A stretch of 9,229 bases of DNA, from contig CAMNHM010000105.1 of assembly GCA_946539475.1 (NCBI GenBank), forward strand, positions 1 through 9,229, read 5' to 3'. The translations under genes and the position numbers were made by a program. The stretch comes from an uncultured Prevotellaceae bacterium. Its GTDB lineage: Bacteria; Bacteroidota; Bacteroidia; Bacteroidales; Bacteroidaceae. The notes beneath the pieces are model-generated. The model searched no databases. It had not been told where the DNA came from and saw nothing but the letters and a program-made list of their open reading frames with translations. Positions 1-9,229 of this stretch are shown here, piece after piece; the stretch's first letter is position 1, and each line of letters opens with the position of its first letter.

Positions 1-312
1 GAAGCCATGCAGGCCCAGGAGGAAGAGAAAGCCGCTGCCGAGGAGGCCAAGGCTACGGCCAAGGCCGAGAAGGAGGCTGCCAAGGCTAAGAAGCCCGGCA
101 TGATGAGCAAGGTGTGGAAGGCCGTCATCACAGCCGTCACCTCTACCCTCGCCACCATCCTCGGCACATATATCAGTGACAAGGTGACGGGCAAGAAGAC
201 CAAGTCGTCGACATCGGCCACGGGGCGCGTGGTGAAGAATGCCACCAGCGCTGCCACACGTTCCATCACCAAGGAACTTACACGCGATATCTTAGGAAAT
301 CTTGTAAAATAG
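1..312 (+). CDS. C-terminal end of a probable HerA-like (DUF853/YjgR family) NTPase, 5'-partial
   Basis: The reading frame is open from the first base of the window (E-A-M-Q...), so this is the last ~103 residues of a gene that starts upstream; the ATG at 7 is probably internal. The visible part begins with a highly charged Ala/Glu/Lys stretch (about residues 3-30) that looks like a helix or linker. A hydrophobic/Thr-rich segment follows (KAVITAVTSTLATILGTYIS). The tail SATRSITKELTRDILGNLVK resembles the conserved C-terminus of DUF853 HerA-like NTPases, in which an Ala/Glu-rich linker precedes an 'R-x-x-x-R-x-(I/V)-LG-x-L' end. The ATPase core would lie outside the window, so no Walker motif can be checked. 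The family call rests on this tail only. Another protein with a coiled linker and a short hydrophobic C-terminus remains possible. The stop TAG at 310-312 directly abuts the heptamer array. Confidence 0.55.
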   Translation, partial: EAMQAQEEEKAAAEEAKATAKAEKEAAKAKKPGMMSKVWKAVITAVTSTLATILGTYISDKVTGKKTKSSTSATGRVVKNATSAATRSITKELTRDILGNLVK

Positions 313-368
313 ATTGAACATTGAACATTGAACATTGAACATTGAACATTGAACATTGAACATTGAAC
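313..368. repeat. Tandem heptamer array, 8 x ATTGAAC
   Basis: Eight perfect head-to-tail copies of ATTGAAC begin at the base after the upstream stop codon. A degenerate ninth copy (ATTAACT, 369-375) leads into the ATG at 377. The array and its degenerate copy fill the whole 64-bp gap between the two + strand genes, and no TAnnTTTG-like promoter is seen in it. Seven is not a multiple of three, so every forward frame meets a TGA within 21 nt, whereas the reverse strand has no stops. A perfect short array of this kind is prone to slippage, so copy number may differ between strains (inference). It would change only the spacing between genes, not a protein. Confidence 0.97.
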
Positions 369-376
369 ATTAACTA

Positions 377-2770
377 ATGAAAATTATTAATCAACTATTC
401 ATGACGCTGCCACTGCTGACAGCGATGCCTGTTATGGCCCAGGATGAGAATCCTGACAAACTAGTGATCAACGAACTGATGCAGTCGAACATCGACTGCA
501 TCATGGACGACCTGAACGAATTCCCCGACTCGTGGGTGGAGCTCTACAACCCCACCGACAAGGCCATCGAACTGAGTGACTACAAGATTGGCACTTCCGA
601 CAAGCTGAAGAAGGCCAATGCGCTGCCCTCCCGGAAAGTGCCGGCGAAGGGATTCGTAGTGATCTATTGCGACAAGTCACGCGAAGACGGCGATAAGGTC
701 TCCCTCCACACCGACTTCCGCCTCGAATCGGGCAAGGACGGTGCCGTCTGCCTCTTCAAGGGCGATGCCGTCATCGACCAGGTCACCGGGATGAAGAAAC
801 AGCCCGCACCCAACATCGCCTACGGCCGTGAGACCGACGGCGCCGACAAGTGGGGCTACCAGCTGACACCCACCCCCGGCAAGGCCAACACCGGCGGCAT
901 CTGCGACGCCAAGCAGATACTGGGCGAGCCCGTCTTCAGCGAACCGGGACGTGTCACCGCCGGAGCCCTCAGCCTGAAATTGGACATCAGCGCGCCCGAG
1001 GGCTCGCCTGAGGGAACCATCGTCCGCTATACCACCGACGGCACAGAGCCCAACGAGACGAGCAAGCGCCTGAGGGGAAAGATCCACATCACCCAGTCGA
1101 CGGTCGTCAAGGCCAAGCTCTTCTGCGACGGATGGCTGTCACCCAGAGCCACGGCACAGTCGTATATCAGCCACGGGCGCGACGTCACCATCCCCGTCGT
1201 CTCCATCTCCATCGACAACAGCTATCTCGACGACTCGAAGATAGGCATCTACGCCAACAACGGCAACGACAAGCGCAACGACTGGCGACGGCCCCTCAAC
1301 ATCGAGTTCTTTTTCGACGAGGGGAAGAGCAGTGTCATCAACCAGCTCTGCGAGGCTCGCGTGGCTGGTGGACAGTCGAGAAACGCAGTCCTGAAGACCC
1401 TCGCCATCTACGCCAACAAGCGCTTCGGCGAGAAACGATTCAACTATGAATTCTTCCCCGACGACAAGCCGGGACTCACCGACTTCAAGTCGCTCATGCT
1501 CCGCAACGCGGGCAACGACTTCGACTATCTCTACATGCGCGACCCCATCATCCAGCGCAATGCAGCCCGCCATATCGACCTCGACTGGCAGGCCTACCGC
1601 CCGGCAGTCCTCTATATCAACGGACAATACCGAGGCATGCTCAACATCCGCGAGCGTTCCAACGAAGACAACATCTACACCAACTACGACGGCCTCGAAG
1701 ACCTCGACATGTTCGAGAACTGGTGGGAGCTGAAGGAAGGCTCGTGGGACAACTACAACGCCTTCAAGGCCTTCTACGAACAGGAGGGCCACACACTGGC
1801 CGAATACGAGCAGTGGATGGACGTGGAGGAGTTCATCAACCTGATGATCATCAACCTCTACCACACCAACTTCGACTTCCCGGGCAACAACATCGTCATG
1901 TGGCGCCCACTGGCCCAGGACGGACGATGGCGCTGGATCATGAAGGACACCGACTTCGGACTCGGACTCTATGGCCGCGACCCCAACTACAAGATCATGG
2001 ACTGGCTCTACAACCACAACTACGACAAAGACCAGAACTGGGCCAACAAGCCCGAGCACACGGTGCTATTCCGCCATCTCATGGACGACGCCGACGCCCG
2101 CCGCATGTTCATCGACCGCTGCTACATCTACATGGGCGACTTCCTCAACCAGAAGCGCATCGAGCAGTTGATGGACCAGATGATGGCCGAGGCAAAGCCC
2201 GAGATCGTCAGGCAAAAGGACGTCAACAAGCCAAGCTGGGCATGGTGGGGCTACGATGCCGAGAACGTGCTCAACGACGAGATCAAGTCGATACGCACAT
2301 GGCTCAGCAAGCGCGGCAATGCCTTCAGCAAGAACATCGCCGACTACTACAAGCTGGGCACGCCTATCACGCTGACCATCAGCCAGGAACAGGCAGACCA
2401 ACAAGCCGCCATCAGCTTCAACGGCCACCGTCTGTCGGAGGGCACGTTCGACGGGAAGTTCATCAAAGATCACCAGATAACGCTCCAGGGCGACGAGCAG
2501 GTCAACGGGTGGCTCGTGAAGACCGTCACCTCAAGCGGCATGAGCGAGGAGACCATCACCGGCCCGCAGCTCACGCTGACCATGCCCCAGTGCAACAACC
2601 TCAGCATCACGGCGCTGACACAGACCACCGCCATCCGAAGCGTGGAGAGCACAAGACTGCAGACCGACGATGCCGTCTACGACCTGCAAGGCCGCAAAGT
2701 GGCTGAGAGTGCTTCGGACAATCTGCCCCGTGGTATTTACATCATCAACGGGAAGAAAGTGGTCAAATAA
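377..2770 (+). CDS. Exported lamin-tail / CotH-kinase-like protein with a T9SS-like C-terminal tail
   Basis: This 797-residue protein starts with a signal peptide (cleavage likely after VMA, about residue 21). A lamin-tail-like beta-domain follows (about 28-135: KLVINELM..., WVELYNP, LSDYKI). Next is a chitobiase/hexosaminidase C-terminal-like module (about 190-265, with YTTDGTEP at 218). A CotH kinase-like domain covers about 272-560: IPVVSISID at 272, YINGQYRG...NIRERSNE with E426, and WRWIMKDTDFGLG with D524 and D526. In Bacillus CotH, an atypical protein kinase acting on spore-coat proteins, a comparable acidic motif binds metal. The last ~31 residues (VYDLQGRKV at 767 to NGKKVVK) resemble the C-terminal sorting tails common on Prevotella secreted proteins. 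This suggests export by the Sec system and possibly cell-surface delivery by type IX secretion. The substrate is unknown. The call is firm at the architecture level; kinase activity is inferred. Confidence 0.88.
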   Translation: MKIINQLFMTLPLLTAMPVMAQDENPDKLVINELMQSNIDCIMDDLNEFPDSWVELYNPTDKAIELSDYKIGTSDKLKKANALPSRKVPAKGFVVIYCDKSREDGDKVSLHTDFRLESGKDGAVCLFKGDAVIDQVTGMKKQPAPNIAYGRETDGADKWGYQLTPTPGKANTGGICDAKQILGEPVFSEPGRVTAGALSLKLDISAPEGSPEGTIVRYTTDGTEPNETSKRLRGKIHITQSTVVKAKLFCDGWLSPRATAQSYISHGRDVTIPVVSISIDNSYLDDSKIGIYANNGNDKRNDWRRPLNIEFFFDEGKSSVINQLCEARVAGGQSRNAVLKTLAIYANKRFGEKRFNYEFFPDDKPGLTDFKSLMLRNAGNDFDYLYMRDPIIQRNAARHIDLDWQAYRPAVLYINGQYRGMLNIRERSNEDNIYTNYDGLEDLDMFENWWELKEGSWDNYNAFKAFYEQEGHTLAEYEQWMDVEEFINLMIINLYHTNFDFPGNNIVMWRPLAQDGRWRWIMKDTDFGLGLYGRDPNYKIMDWLYNHNYDKDQNWANKPEHTVLFRHLMDDADARRMFIDRCYIYMGDFLNQKRIEQLMDQMMAEAKPEIVRQKDVNKPSWAWWGYDAENVLNDEIKSIRTWLSKRGNAFSKNIADYYKLGTPITLTISQEQADQQAAISFNGHRLSEGTFDGKFIKDHQITLQGDEQVNGWLVKTVTSSGMSEETITGPQLTLTMPQCNNLSITALTQTTAIRSVESTRLQTDDAVYDLQGRKVAESASDNLPRGIYIINGKKVVK

Positions 2771-2837
2771 ACATTTAAACAAATAAAAACTGTGCCGACC
2801 GCGCCGTTTTCGCTCTAACACATTAGATATCAATGCT

Positions 2838-2889
2838 ATAATAACGGCATAGTTGCTCCAAAACCTAGCCGCAACTATGCCGTTATTAT
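2838..2889. terminator. Perfect 19-bp inverted repeat; possible bidirectional terminator
   Basis: The arm at 2838-2856 (ATAATAACGGCATAGTTGC) is exactly complementary to 2871-2889, with a 14-nt loop. It lies 67 bp after the CotH-like stop in a convergent region, which fits a transcription terminator. A run of T does not follow the right arm directly, so it is not a textbook intrinsic terminator. It could instead be a protein-binding palindrome or part of a small RNA. TATGCCGTT from the right arm (2876-2884) recurs 11 bp later at 2887-2895. Confidence 0.6.
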
Positions 2890-2936
2890 GCCGTTTAGCC
2901 GCAAAGAAACATTCCTGCTGACGAATAGGGGCCTTC

Positions 2937-3002
2937 AAAGTGGGAGGAAGGTACATCTATAGTGGAAAGAAGGTACATCCAAAGTGGTAGAGAGGTGCCT
3001 TT
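2937..3002. repeat. Three tandem 22-bp repeats, first block
   Basis: Units lie at 2937-2958, 2959-2980 and 2981-3002. The shared frame is A-(A/T)-AGTGG followed by purine-rich sequence and AGG. Units 1 and 2 share GAAGGTACATC at the same offset, while unit 3 has diverged (GAGAGGTGCC). A weak fourth copy may precede 2937 (GGGGCCTTC). The period is about two helical turns, so equivalent positions would lie on about the same DNA face. Confidence 0.75.
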
Positions 3003-3010
3003 AAACTACC

Positions 3011-3076
3011 TTTCGCCTTGGCGCAAAATACCTTACGCGCCTACGCAAAACACCTTACGCGTATACGCAAAATGGA
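3011..3076. repeat. Three tandem 22-bp repeats, second block, dyad-centred
   Basis: Units lie at 3011-3032, 3033-3054 and 3055-3076, after an 8-bp gap from the first block. Period and copy number match that block, but the sequence differs (TT-(T/A)-CGC... followed by CGCAAAA). Each unit has a short dyad near its centre: CGCCTTGGCG at 3014-3023, GCG-CCTA-CGC at 3037-3046, and the perfect palindrome GCGTATACGC at 3059-3068. Dyads repeated at regular spacing are typical of protein-binding sites; no binding protein can be named from the sequence. Confidence 0.7.
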
Positions 3077-3199
3077 AGAGGCTTCAGAAGCACAGCCAAT
3101 CTTCAAGGGATAAGACGGGTTAATCTCTGTCAAGAAATCAGAATGAAGAGCCCAAAAATCACCGAAAAACGTGTCAAAATATCGGAAACAGGCCAAAAA

Positions 3200-3303
3200 T
3201 AGCAGGGTTGGTAGCAGGATTGTAGCGGCATTTAAGGCAACCCCGCTACCGATAATGCACTGCATCACAGCATATTATGGAAATTGTAGCGGGGATAGCG
3301 GGG
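3200..3303 (+). repeat. Cluster of TAGC(A/G)GG words
   Basis: Direct copies of TAGCRGG start at 3200, 3212, 3223, 3287 and 3296, and an inverted copy (CCCCGCTA) lies at 3241-3248. The first three are 11-12 bp apart, about one helical turn. The inverted copy can pair with 3222-3228, 3286-3294 or 3296-3305, so alternative mutually exclusive hairpins are possible. Confidence 0.6.
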
Positions 3304-3308
3304 TTTTT
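3239..3308. terminator. Terminator-like stem beside the rsgA stop
   Basis: AACCCCGCTA (3239-3248) is complementary to TAGCGGGGTT (3296-3305), a 10-bp GC-rich stem that runs into a T tract on the + strand (3304-3308). The loop is long (47 nt) but partly folds itself (ATAATGC against GCATATTAT). On the - strand it lies just past the rsgA stop and would fold in that transcript too, without a strong T tract. It may therefore stop transcripts from either side. Confidence 0.5.
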
Positions 3309-3321
3309 CGCGTTATATGTA

Positions 3322-4251
3322 TTAGTACGCCTCGCGATATTTGCTGCTGTCCTTGTCGCCGAGCATGCTGAGGTAGCTCTGATAACGGCTCTGGGCGATA
3401 TAATGGTCCTCGAGGGCCTGCAGCACGGCACAACCCGGCTCATGGGTATGGGTGCAGTTGGAGAAACGGCAGTCCTTGGAGAAACGGAATATCTCACGGA
3501 AATAGCTGGTAAGCTCCTCGGGCTCCATGTCGAAGGAACCGAAGCCCTTGATGCCCGGTGTGTCGATGAGCCAGCCGCTGCCGATGGAGATCATCTCGGA
3601 GAAAGTAGTGGTGTGCTGGCCCGTATCGTGGGCATCAGAGATGTCTGCCGTGCGGAGGTTCACGCCCGGCACAAGACTGTTGATGAGCGTGGACTTGCCC
3701 ACCCCGCTGTTGCCGCTGAGCAGCGTGACGCGGTCGGAGAGCAAAGGGCGCAGCGCGTCGACCCCCTCGCCCGTGGCGGCAGAGATCTGCCGGCACTCAT
3801 AGCCCACGGTCTCGTAGAGCGTGACGAGCATCCCGAGGTAGCGGCGCTCGTCGTCGTCGTAGAGATCGGTCTTATTAAATAATAGGATCACGGGCACGCG
3901 ATAGGCTTCGGCCGAAGCCAGGAACCGGTCGATGAAGGTGGTGGAGGTCTGTGGATGGCTGACGGTGACCAGGAGCAGTGCCTGGTCGACATTGGCGGCA
4001 ATGATATGACTCTGCTTGGAGAGATTCTGGGAGCGCCGGATGATATAGTTGCGACGGTCGGCAATCTCAGTGATGAGGGCGGTGCCCTCGGGATTGGGGA
4101 CAATCGTCACGCGGTCGCCCACAGCCACGGGATTGGTGCTGCGGATGCCCTTCAGGCGAAAGTTGCCCTTGACCTTGGAATCAATCAGCTGGCCATCGTC
4201 CGTGAGGACGGTGTACCAGCTGCCTGTATTCTTGACGACAAGACCGTGCAT
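3322..4251 (-). CDS. rsgA: Ribosome small-subunit-dependent GTPase RsgA
   Basis: This cytoplasmic GTPase helps late maturation of the 30S subunit; GTP hydrolysis is stimulated by the subunit. The 309-residue protein has the family's diagnostic circularly permuted G-motif order. An N-terminal OB-fold (about 1-70) is followed by G4 NKTD (126-129), G5-like SAA (157-159), the P-loop GNSGVGKST (180-188), the G2 threonines (214-216) and G3 DTPG (230-233). The C-terminal zinc motif C-x4-C-x-H-x5-C is complete (C261, C266, H268, C274). Length is usual for the family and all key residues are present. The ATG is one base past the frr stop (TAA-A-ATG on the coding strand), so it probably shares the frr transcript and may be translationally coupled to it. 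Both genes serve the ribosome. The identification is secure. Confidence 0.97.
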
Positions 4252-4252
4252 T

Positions 4253-4813
4253 TTAGACGGTCATGATTTCCTTGTTCTTGGCCTCGATGAGGGCGTCGAG
4301 CTTCTTGATGTACTTGTCGTGGAGCTTCTGCAGCTCGAGTTCAGCATCCTTCTCGTTGTCCTCTGAGAGTCCGTCCTTGATGGCCTTCTTGAGCTTGTCC
4401 TTGATGTCGGCACGCACGTTGCGCACCTCCACCTTGGCCTTCTCGGCGATCTTGTTGCACTGCTTCACCAGGTCGCGGCGACGCTCCTCGGTGGGCTGCG
4501 GGATGTTCAGACGGATCACCTCGCCATTGTTCTCGGGGGTGATGCCCACGTCGCTGTCCATGATAGCCTTCTCGATGGCCTTGATCTCCTTGCGGTCCCA
4601 GGGCTTGATGGCGATGGTGCGGGCATCGGGCACGCTGACGTTGGCCACCTGGTTCAGGGGCACCTTGCTGCCGTAGGAGTCCACGCGGACAGCATCGAGG
4701 ATAGCCACATTGGCACGGCCCGCACGGATGCGGTTCAACTCGTCCTCGAGGAACATGGCTGCCATCTCCATGCGCTCCTCGCTCTTCTTCAATGTCTCTT
4801 TTACGTCGATCAT
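4253..4813 (-). CDS. frr: Ribosome recycling factor
   Basis: With EF-G, ribosome recycling factor splits the post-termination ribosome into subunits so they can be reused. The 186-residue protein has the standard length and start ([15 protein letters not shown]). It also has the conserved domain I/II hinge region [13 protein letters not shown] (28-40), the domain II strand region around [13 protein letters not shown] (61-73), the [14 protein letters not shown] segment (104-117) and the RNVRAD helix (131-136), which carries conserved arginines needed for ribosome binding in the family. It is the first gene of a two-gene unit with rsgA. A Bacteroidota-type promoter lies about 40 bp upstream of its ATG and implies a leader of roughly 33 nt. 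Nothing is unusual in the protein. Confidence 0.98.
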
Positions 4814-4853
4814 AACTCTACTGATTGATTAAACATTTTACTGATTTTGACTA

Positions 4854-4885
4854 CAAAAGTAATGTTTTTATCGCAAACTTCCAAA
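4854..4885 (-). promoter_or_regulatory. Bacteroidota-type promoter for frr-rsgA
   Basis: Read on the - strand, TTTG (4885-4882), a 20-nt spacer and TACTTTTG (4861-4854) match the primary-sigma consensus TTTG-N19-21-TAnnTTTG known from Bacteroides. The expected start of transcription is near 4847. Confidence 0.75.
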
Positions 4886-4922
4886 TATTTGCCCTCAATT
4901 TGTACTTTTTTGGGAAAATAAT

Positions 4923-4953
4923 TTTGTCCGTTTGCCACTTTTCACTATCTTTG
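4923..4953 (+). promoter_or_regulatory. Bacteroidota-type promoter for the kinase pair
   Basis: TTTG (4923-4926), a 19-nt spacer and TATCTTTG (4946-4953) form a full consensus match. A second TTTG at 4931 is too close to serve. The expected transcription start is near 4960, about 25 nt before the ATG at 4986. This rules out the in-frame TTG at 4932, which lies inside the promoter. It sits back-to-back with the frr promoter. Confidence 0.8.
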
Positions 4954-4985
4954 CAGTTGATTACTACAACGACGTGACAACAAAT

Positions 4986-7118
4986 ATGCACAAGACCAAT
5001 AGCTATAAGCTGGCCTGCTTGGCTGTTCTATGCATGTATTCCGTGACTGCCATGGCTCAGAAGGAGAACATGGAGACATTGTTTGACGCCCCCCACATGA
5101 TGGCTTATCTGGTGGCGGGGCTCATGATCACCATCTTTGTCATGATCTTCTCCAACCGTGTGTTCTTCTACCGAGAGCAGGAAGTGAGGTCGGAGTCGGA
5201 GCGCCTCAACGCGCAGCTGGCACTGATCATGGATGCCAACATGACGCAGGCGTGGACCTACAGCCAGAGCAAGAACGTGTTCAAGATCATCTCCGGGCGC
5301 AACGGCCTCGAGAAGACCATGCTGCCCATCGACTTCTCGCAGACTTTCGAGCGTGAGGACTTCCTGGAGCTGCGCAGCAGGATGCAGGCCATCTTCGAAG
5401 GCGACCTGCTCAGCGACCAGCTCTACGCCAAGGGCGTACAGCCCAAGACAGGAGGACGACAGCGACAGTACGAGATCAACCTCTCCATCCTGCGCCGCGA
5501 CCGCAGGGGCAGGCCCACGATGGTGCTGGGCGTGCAGACCGACATCACCGACGACCAGATGAAGATGGAAAAGGTGCACAAGCTGAGACTCAGGTTCCAC
5601 ACGGTGTTCTACTCGTCGCTCATCGACATGATCTACTTCGACGGCGACGGCTACATCAGCGACATGAACGAGAAGGCCTGCGAGACCTTACACATCGCCA
5701 ACCGGGAGGAGGCCATTGCCAAGCATACCCACATCAACGACATACCTCCCTTCATCAACATCGACTTCAGGACGACGGACAGTATGCAGACCACCACGAT
5801 GGTACACGCCAGCGAACTGAAGCGACTGAACCTGCTGCCGCAGGAGATCCCCGACCGGTTGTTCTACTACGAGGTGACCGTGAGCACCATCCGCGACCCG
5901 GAGGGCAACCTGATAGGCATCTTTACGGCAGGGCGCAACGTGACGGACATGGTGGAGTCCTACCACCACCAACAGGAGAGCACCAAGCTGCTCTCGCAGG
6001 CTACCCGCGACATACAGAACTACGTGGAGAACATCAACTACTCGCTGAAGGTGAGCAACGTATGGCTGATGAACTACTACCCCGACACCCACACGCTCGA
6101 CATCTCCAGCGACCTCAATGCCGCGCAGTACCGCCTGCCGCAACTGCGCGCCATCACCATGATCAAGGTGAGCGACCGCCGCAAGGCCAAGGGCCTGCTC
6201 ATGAGGATGGACCGCCGGCACCCGGGCATCATCAACTCGACGCTGCACACGATTATGCGCGACGAGCAGGGGCGCGACGTGTTCCTGCACTTCAACGTGA
6301 TGCCCATCTACAATGCCAGCGGAGAGCTGACCCACTACTTCGGCATGTGCCGCAACGTGACCGAGATGACCTATACGGAGATCAAGTTGCGCCAGGAGAC
6401 AGAGAAGGCCCAGGAGACGGAACAGCTGAAGAACACCTTCCTGCTGAACATGAGCTACGAGATACGTACGCCGCTGAACGCCGTGGTGGGATTCGCCGAA
6501 CTCTTCAAGGAAGAGCACGACGTGGAGGACGAACCCGTCTTCGCCCAGGAGATCAAGCAGAACACCAGCGAGCTGCTCAAGCTGATCAACGACATCCTCT
6601 TCATCTCGCGGCTGGATGCCAGGATGATCGAGTTCGACTATCAGGAGGCCGACTTCGCCACCATGTTCGAAGCCTGGTGCTACATGGGATGGAGCACCCT
6701 CGACCCCAGCATCAAGATGGGAGTGGACAATCCCTACAACCACCTGACGGCACGACTGGACACGCAGAACCTGGGAATGGTAATCGAGAAGATATGCGCC
6801 TTCTCGGCCAGCATGGTCACCGAAGGAGCCGTCAGGGCGAAGTACGAATACCGCCACGGGGAACTGATGATCACCATCGAGGACACCGGCTGCGGCATCG
6901 CCAAGGAGGACCTGCCCCATGTGTTCGACCGCTTCGTGCGCAACGCTCAGAACGAGCATTTCGGCTCAGGCCTCGACCTGCCCATCGCACAGGAACTGCT
7001 GGAACAGATGGGAGGCTCGATTGAGGTACAGTCGGAAGAGGGGAAGGGCACCAGCTTCTACCTGAGCATCCCCTGTGAGAGCGACAGTCTGGAGAAGAAA
7101 TCGGAAATCATCGTATAA
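4986..7118 (+). CDS. Multi-PAS histidine-kinase-like protein with degenerate catalytic boxes (probable pseudo-kinase)
   Basis: The ATG at 4986 is chosen because it begins a signal-like segment (1-25, ending TAMAQ) and lies just past the promoter; the protein then has 710 residues. A transmembrane helix (38-56) leaves only a ~12-residue outer loop, so sensing is probably cytoplasmic or within the membrane. Three PAS-like domains follow (about 75-190, 197-322, 345-465; each ends in a D-I/V-T-D/E type motif), then HisKA (475-545) and HATPase (590-695). The H-box reads NMSYEIRTPLN, with Tyr491 in place of the phospho-acceptor His. In an ungapped alignment with the downstream kinase the N-box Asn becomes Phe606, and the G2 Gly becomes Asp664 (GSGLDL). 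Kept are the E-x-x-T motif after the H position, G1 DTGCGI (D633) and FDRF. Autophosphorylation on His is impossible; a regulatory or phosphatase-like role, or dimerisation with the neighbour, is inferred. Confidence 0.9.
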   Translation: MHKTNSYKLACLAVLCMYSVTAMAQKENMETLFDAPHMMAYLVAGLMITIFVMIFSNRVFFYREQEVRSESERLNAQLALIMDANMTQAWTYSQSKNVFKIISGRNGLEKTMLPIDFSQTFEREDFLELRSRMQAIFEGDLLSDQLYAKGVQPKTGGRQRQYEINLSILRRDRRGRPTMVLGVQTDITDDQMKMEKVHKLRLRFHTVFYSSLIDMIYFDGDGYISDMNEKACETLHIANREEAIAKHTHINDIPPFINIDFRTTDSMQTTTMVHASELKRLNLLPQEIPDRLFYYEVTVSTIRDPEGNLIGIFTAGRNVTDMVESYHHQQESTKLLSQATRDIQNYVENINYSLKVSNVWLMNYYPDTHTLDISSDLNAAQYRLPQLRAITMIKVSDRRKAKGLLMRMDRRHPGIINSTLHTIMRDEQGRDVFLHFNVMPIYNASGELTHYFGMCRNVTEMTYTEIKLRQETEKAQETEQLKNTFLLNMSYEIRTPLNAVVGFAELFKEEHDVEDEPVFAQEIKQNTSELLKLINDILFISRLDARMIEFDYQEADFATMFEAWCYMGWSTLDPSIKMGVDNPYNHLTARLDTQNLGMVIEKICAFSASMVTEGAVRAKYEYRHGELMITIEDTGCGIAKEDLPHVFDRFVRNAQNEHFGSGLDLPIAQELLEQMGGSIEVQSEEGKGTSFYLSIPCESDSLEKKSEIIV

Positions 7119-7124
7119 GAAAAG

Positions 7125-9197
<2,073 letters not shown>

Positions 9198-9229
9198 GTA
9201 ATGACAAATAATAATATAATAAGGTATAG
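9198..9229 (+). other. AT-rich end of window, possible start of a next gene
   Basis: An ATG at 9201 opens a frame (M-T-N-N-N-I-I-R-Y) that runs off the window. It sits right after an array, as the ATG at 377 does. The nine residues are low in complexity and may be chance; the frame cannot be judged without downstream sequence. Confidence 0.2.

Follow-up and report, generated by a model that had tools for sequence, protein, structure and literature searches.

Pseudo-histidine kinases as such are already known. DivL of Caulobacter and other alphaproteobacteria (PDB 4q20) carries Tyr at the acceptor site, apparently retains the other kinase motifs and binds ATP weakly; it acts without kinase activity, through the separate kinase CckA, and Tyr is present in most of its orthologues (available part of PMC4211667). 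RetS of Pseudomonas aeruginosa (PDB 6dk7, 7n0e) combines a degenerate ATPase domain with a retained phosphatase motif, is described as incapable of autophosphorylation and lowers GacS signalling in three ways (available part of PMC5992135), and for the Caulobacter hybrid kinase CCNA_03265, which is without the conserved His, the authors suggest a possible heterodimer with another kinase (available part of PMC11481889). Here we describe a 9,229-nucleotide stretch of DNA from an uncultured Prevotellaceae bacterium (assembly GCA_946539475.1, contig CAMNHM010000105.1, positions 1 to 9,229; hereafter the window), in which a kinase-like gene with Tyr in place of the phospho-acceptor His, U1, stands immediately upstream of an intact histidine kinase gene, D1. 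Across related genomes we call such an upstream kinase-like gene U and the adjacent downstream kinase D. A search of open-licence titles and abstracts, outside which most subscription papers fall, returned no report of U-D pairs in Prevotella or other Bacteroidota. We lean, with limited confidence, towards U1 and D1 being an obligate pseudokinase-kinase sensor module, in which U acts by way of D and the two most probably form a heterodimer; the "dead" partner U is probably a conserved working part and not a one-off mutation.

As read from the sequence, U1 encodes 710 amino acids, among which the eye picks out a single membrane segment near the N terminus, and D1, which lies 6 bp downstream, encodes 674. 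Both proteins match the PAS, HisKA and HATPase_c families of Pfam; U1 scores 54.3 bits against PF00512 (cut-off 26.9) and 73.5 bits against PF02518 (cut-off 26.4), and a fold comparison of its kinase core placed it in the HisKA/HATPase_c fold family. No Response_reg match was found in U1 with Pfam at E-values up to 1, and D1 was likewise without a receiver match. The structure model of D1 has a mean predicted local distance difference test (pLDDT) score of 82.1. Among solved structures, those nearest to D1 in sequence are HK853 entries, and the listed beginning of one of their titles points to cis-auto(phosphorylation).

The N and G boxes of histidine kinases serve ATP binding, and U1 was judged on this basis. 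In the alignment, K602 and F606 of U1 occupy the positions of the two N-box Asn of D1 (VIEKICAFSASMVTEG aligned with VITNFVTNAVKYTQQG), both of which are absent from U1, and the counterpart of its GSGLDLPI stretch is the G2 box GTGLGLAI of D1. Measured against a catalytically competent HisKA kinase, U1 is deficient in the acceptor His, the N-box Asn and the G2 glycines, and in D1 the H, N, G1, F and G2 boxes are all intact. Because the N-box Asn and a G2 Gly are lost, U1 should not bind Mg-ATP normally.

Table 1. Coordinates of the U1-D1 pair and its kinase motifs in the window.
Feature	Position	Strand	Basis
U1, PAS / HisKA / HATPase_c protein without acceptor His (pseudo-histidine kinase)	4986..7118	+	Open reading frame, Pfam
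D1, intact PAS / HisKA / HATPase_c histidine kinase	7125..9149	+	Open reading frame, Pfam
U1 H box NMSYEIRTPLN, E-x-x-T retained	6447..6479	+	Sequence reading
U1 Tyr491, codon TAC, replaces phospho-acceptor His	6456..6458	+	Residue counted from ATG at 4986
D1 H box NMTHEIRTPLN, His466 codon CAC at 8520-8522	8511..8543	+	Sequence reading
U1 degenerate N box VIEKICAFSASMVTEG	6780..6827	+	U1-D1 alignment
D1 intact N box VITNFVTNAVKYT	8847..8885	+	Sequence reading, alignment
U1 G1 box DTGCGI, retained	6882..6899	+	Alignment
U1 G2 box GSGLDLPI, third Gly to Asp (D664)	6963..6986	+	Alignment

U1 shares with DivL the acceptor Tyr, PAS domains and the HisKA plus ATPase fold. A parallel with DivL had been drawn in an earlier sequence-only reading of this DNA; it holds at the acceptor site and does not extend to the other motifs, since DivL apparently retains the N, G1, F and G2 boxes (available part of PMC4211667), whereas U1 has lost the N-box Asn and one G2 Gly. 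Unlike DivL, U is also encoded beside its sister kinase. With RetS, U1 has in common a degenerate ATPase domain, the E-x-x-T motif, a separate partner kinase and a similar core fold. RetS, however, possesses an H-box His and receiver domains (available part of PMC5992135), neither of which is present in U1, so that its complete HExxT stands against a YEIRT in which E and T are kept and His is absent; moreover, U and D are paralogues within one gene pair, unlike RetS and GacS. As a functional model for U1, RetS is as good as DivL. CCNA_03265 differs in being a single hybrid kinase with a receiver, and an adjacent sister pair is absent from the available part of its description. The conventional HisKA kinases WalK and HK853 resemble U1 in domain plan and core fold, but U1 is without their acceptor His and ATP-binding residues.

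The sequence-only reading had set Tyr491 (TAC, 6456-6458) against His466 (CAC, 8520-8522), and on re-reading both coordinates and residues were exact; the 23 identical bases that it had placed after the site were found at 6457-6479 in U1 and 8521-8543 in D1. A sequencing error or single-strain change at Tyr491 was rejected: the codon TAC is also present in the nearest genome compared, which has 80% of sampled words in common with the window, and the acceptor site is Tyr in 120 of 120 U1 homologues of 51-100% identity (the best 120 of 1803 matches with E <= 1e-40). In this same set of the best 120 matches, with the query added, the first N-box Asn occurs in 0 of 121 and the second in 21 of 121. 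Gene conversion as the source of the 23-base identity was likewise rejected, the H-box codons being identical without excess: over 157 scorable U/D pairs, the fraction of equal residues with the same codon was 0.521 for the seven codons that follow the site, against 0.520 for the remainder. For these pairs, 23 is still a long run (median 4, only one pair higher, at 25), and it is also 23 in locus L031, a near-identical relative of the window.

We assembled 121 regions, comprising the window and 120 fetched loci, of which 100 were picked by their match to U1 (among about 150 matches listed) and 20 by a D match alone (among the D matches listed), the latter as a check on the U-based choice. Sixteen additional regions, separate from this set, served as a second check. 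The census covered 377 kinase cores (188 U, 181 D and 8 other), labelled with profiles in which the acceptor column had been masked; cores below 150 aligned residues, including one further piece each in L118 and L121, and the eight other kinases were left out. One U without an H site was dropped, leaving 187, and two more were too short for the tree, leaving 185. As species the regions are partly non-independent, the window and L031 being near-identical kin.

The acceptor Tyr is kept in U orthologues as that of DivL is in its own, being present in 138 of the 187 scorable U as well as in all 120 listed homologues; the others have His (25), Phe (13), Gln (7), Ser (2) or Glu (2). None of the 187 combines His with both N-box Asn, and the first N-box Asn is retained in five. 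The E-x-x-T motif, which the sequence-only reading had seen as kept in the upstream gene, has both E and T in 173 of the 187. All 181 D carry the acceptor His, both N-box Asn, the N-box Lys, the G1 Asp and both F-box Phe, and their departures at the 15 scored positions amount to one R-to-L change and two unreadable G2 cells. In L142 (9142-12210) and L143 (7160-10081), a U with Gln at the site has further H-box changes, and a D with His still follows.

U is divided into two grades by the number of residues ahead of the kinase core. PAS-only U (350-600 residues before the core, n = 84), the grade of the window, have Tyr in 80 and His in 4, and have lost the third G2 Gly in 84 of 84 and the second N-box Asn in 72 of 84. 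Long-N-terminal U (more than 600 residues, n = 101) have Tyr in 56, His in 21, Phe in 13, Gln in 7, Ser in 2 and Glu in 2; in the one such pair that was scanned, an SBP_bac_3 sensor part was found in both U and its D. The two remaining U are short or cut.

The two genes are almost always found together. Of 398 genomes of the genus, 157 gave U1-like genes (E <= 1e-100) and 160 gave D1-like genes (E <= 1e-110), with 155 genomes on both strict lists, two on the U list only and five on the D list only. Under a looser search, six of these seven one-sided genomes gave separate U and D matches, confirmed on fetched loci; in the seventh, G159, the D locus alone matches and the adjacent U is a fragment at a contig end. 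A scan of named-record contigs, which also supplied outgroups, returned mostly unrelated kinases among the matches listed, together with at least three Prevotella loci that match nearly all of U1.

Along the transcribed strand, a U comes before 178 of the 181 D and a D after 178 of the 188 U, and strands are never mixed. At the 13 exceptions, 1 to 2535 bases remain on the partner side, less than a whole partner gene, and the three D without a preceding U all lie at sequence ends. The loci picked by D alone have U directly upstream in 20 of 20, once as a contig-end fragment, and the 16 additional regions contain a U-D pair in 14 (one with a broken D frame) and a lone kinase in two. Gene orders in the 121 regions were U-D-U-D (60), U-D (47), U-D-U-D-U-D (1) and cut forms (13). 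This larger repeated arrangement around the pair, and the loss of the N-box Asn and third G2 Gly in U1, go beyond what the sequence-only reading had noted. D1 and the next U, U2, occupy a single open frame in L034 (2-4135, 1378 amino acids, starting at the contig end), L053 (5643-10412, 1590 amino acids) and L062 (5590-10386, 1599 amino acids), which may reflect fusion or an internal start; by eye, the D1/U2 junction of L062 contains a hydrophobic, signal-peptide-like stretch.

At the family level, 11 of 301 genomes matched U1 (E <= 1e-60), and five of these belong to a second genus; in each of the five, the U site is Gln and a D core follows (in one as a broken frame only). A non-His residue at the site, Tyr or other, together with gene adjacency, recurs across the genus and in this second genus, in agreement with the conservation among orthologues that the sequence-only reading had named as its check. 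Across the order, the His form of the H-box pattern gave 106 matches in 37 of 60 genomes, and the Tyr form gave four matches in three of 393 genomes, two in the nearest kin of the window and the other two in separate genomes of another genus. This is a narrow pattern, and the order-wide sample includes only three genomes of the window's genus. L132 and L133, from another genus of the order, encode kinases of about 940 amino acids that read MSYEIRTPL, an independent Tyr-for-His replacement, with receiver-like C-terminal stretches judged by eye on loci of only 3 kb.

U1 groups with the U and D1 with the D. In a tree of 185 U and 31 D, U formed a monophyletic clade on a long branch (support 0.995), and its ancestor was reconstructed as Tyr at 0.997 under an equal-rates model. 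Acceptor states changed 18 times on this tree; when the labels were shuffled, the mean was 47. The 25 tips with His fall into nine separate clades, so that His seems to have returned in U about nine times, an approximate count given simple models and weak inner forks. A non-His U ancestor with regain gave a log-likelihood (lnL) of -36.2, and a His-ancestral U was rejected at -40.7 with regain and -48.8 without regain, which takes 30 losses.

U and D were also separate clades in a 75-row tree that took in 12 outgroup kinases and, from 14 of the 16 additional regions, 25 rows (Shimodaira-Hasegawa-like approximate likelihood ratio test, SH-aLRT, 99 for U and 100 for D). The earliest branch in each clade consists of the same three loci from two genomes. 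Among these early-branching loci, the U of L240 and L244 has a complete N box and, as its H-site residue, Phe or Tyr, which suggests that U lost the acceptor before ATP binding. The core-only tree joined U and D only with 17 other rows inside (support 0.707), ten of which sit within the U or the D clade. A longer alignment grouped U, D and two lone kinases against the 12 outgroup kinases with SH-aLRT 96, a value from a quick method with no bootstrap and no mixture model. On these trees, U and D would appear to be two old sister-like clades.

The following scheme would accommodate these data. A single membrane kinase would have duplicated in the Prevotella lineage to give the U-D module, U losing its acceptor His at or near its origin, with Tyr as the ancestral state that the sequences support. 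The sequence comparison likewise supports that the PAS-only subclass, that of the window included, later lost ATP-binding residues as well, that D kept the scored catalytic residues, and that the two genes stayed together in the same order and multiplied as a pair. Being presumably unable to autophosphorylate, U would most likely be joined to D through the four-helix DHp bundle, and only the D His would be phosphorylated, in cis, by the ATP domain of D itself: in the window pair the single acceptor and the single intact ATP site both belong to D, which in a U:D dimer would leave D to be phosphorylated in cis and in no other way. U would bring in a PAS and membrane input of its own, and the H-box surface and E-x-x-T that it retains could dock on or dephosphorylate a shared response regulator, by which U would set the kinase/phosphatase balance. 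Most likely, then, U senses, docks and dampens within the heterodimer. Extended to the whole genus, the scheme becomes more tentative: we consider it quite possible, though we stop short of favouring it, that these are obligate two-chain kinases, each a heterodimer of an alpha (kinase) and a beta (pseudokinase) chain, derived from one duplication followed by amplification of the pair. We are similarly guarded on the corollary that two grades of beta decay, one of the acceptor only and one of acceptor and ATP site, coexist in one operon-like array.

Covariation between the U and D dimerisation domains was compared over 178 pairs, an effective depth of 49 that is too shallow to weigh on either side of the heterodimer question: five of the top 40 U-D column pairs lay near the diagonal where 4.3 are expected, with two for a mispaired control and six for cognate pairs of the same clusters. 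Several other observations weigh against the heterodimer scheme. The sequence-only reading had proposed a pseudo-kinase/kinase module and had counted His in upstream orthologues as evidence to the contrary; its genomic part is strongly supported by near-absolute adjacency, and most U orthologues are without His, yet 25 of the 187 U have it, and strict acceptor loss is not required everywhere. Of the 101 long-N-terminal U, 89 retain the second N-box Asn and 83 the third G2 Gly, so the loss of ATP binding is not general in U. Lone intact kinases of the same plan occur without U in L241 (5368-8094) and L250 (5332-8088); they sit in both early-branch genomes, branch outside the U and D clades and are a possible candidate for the unduplicated form. 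Finally, no consistent response regulator was found within 2.5 kb of the clusters in the 120 fetched regions, a response-regulator family being upstream in six.

The retention of ATP-site residues in long-N-terminal U bears on one alternative, a split-labour kinase in which such a U phosphorylates the D His in trans and is catalytic, not regulatory. The U of L240 and L244, with a whole N box and Phe or Tyr at the H site, would also suit it, but the idea is hardly tenable for PAS-only U, given their losses of the third G2 Gly (84 of 84) and second Asn (72 of 84), and we regard it as very improbable. We consider it unlikely, if worth keeping in view, that U1 is a RetS-like antagonist acting without a stable heterodimer, as a homodimer that would serve, through its H-box surface and E-x-x-T, as a phosphatase or a decoy for the response regulator of D1. 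The persistence of E and T in 173 of the 187 U though the acceptor His is mostly gone would fit such a role, as would the precedent of a degenerate ATPase with HExxT-dependent phosphatase activity and inhibition of GacS autophosphorylation (available part of PMC5992135); the near-absolute adjacency and co-occurrence of U and D, however, exceed the needs of a diffusible antagonist, and RetS dephosphorylates a receiver domain inside its partner kinase (same part of that source), whereas U1 and D1 are without a receiver match.

That U1 might resemble DivL in function, sensing a phosphorylated response regulator through its DHp surface and acting as an allosteric switch of D1 with information flow reversed, we judge distinctly improbable. 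The shared acceptor Tyr is matched by no special kinship: DivL (4q20) aligns with U1 at E 5.7e-18 and with D1 at 5.6e-20, ordinary kinases score better against both, and since U1 is no closer to DivL than D1 is, no DivL-family relationship beyond that of ordinary kinases is indicated. Nor is there a recurrent single-domain regulator among the listed neighbour families. A decaying, redundant copy without function would explain why several catalytic residues are lost in U1, but we give this almost no credence. Against the nearest genome, the ratio of non-synonymous to synonymous rates (dN/dS) of U1 is 0.146 (20 synonymous and 11 non-synonymous differences), close to the 0.168 of D1 (19 and 12); 49 U1-type proteins have many invariant columns in common, including most of the remaining H box, and U is kept beside D across the genus. 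U1 looks to be under constraint, with the caution that dN/dS rests on few differences.

Neighbours within 2.5 kb were examined in the 120 fetched regions, the window being left out, and were found in 119. The most frequent family lies downstream on the opposite strand (48 regions), followed by an RsgA-like family, recognized by its likeness to the window's own gene (42 regions), a further upstream opposite-strand family (39 regions), and a family of 22 regions that we take to be cysteine-synthase-like. An AraC-type regulator on the same strand follows the last D at a distance of -88 to 122 bp in 30 of the 120 regions, including L031 (4953-5822), and is possibly an output of the module or a chance neighbour. 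Elsewhere in the window, positions 377-2770 encode a 797-amino-acid protein with CotH kinase-like, lamin-tail and chitobiase-like domains, preceded by 7-bp tandem repeats of ATTGAAC (313-371, 8.4 copies). A second array of 7-bp repeats, GTGAATA, lies at and past the D1 end (9142-9199, 8.3 copies), and a gene-poor stretch contains a perfect 19-bp inverted repeat with a 14-nucleotide loop (2838-2889) and 22-bp tandem repeats at 2936-2996 and 3022-3073.

Overall, the pseudo-histidine kinases of the papers cited here, DivL and RetS, are single cases, whereas the present set holds 178 scored pseudokinase/kinase pairs. It also carries a warning for annotation: domain models count proteins that should not be kinases, U1 passing both the HisKA and the HATPase_c Pfam cut-offs. 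The pairs form a natural series, from early branches with loss of the acceptor only, through others with loss of ATP-binding residues as well, to lineages with an apparent return of His. Such a series makes it possible to test whether a dimer can run on one active subunit, whether phosphorylation proceeds in cis or in trans, and what retains a dead partner.
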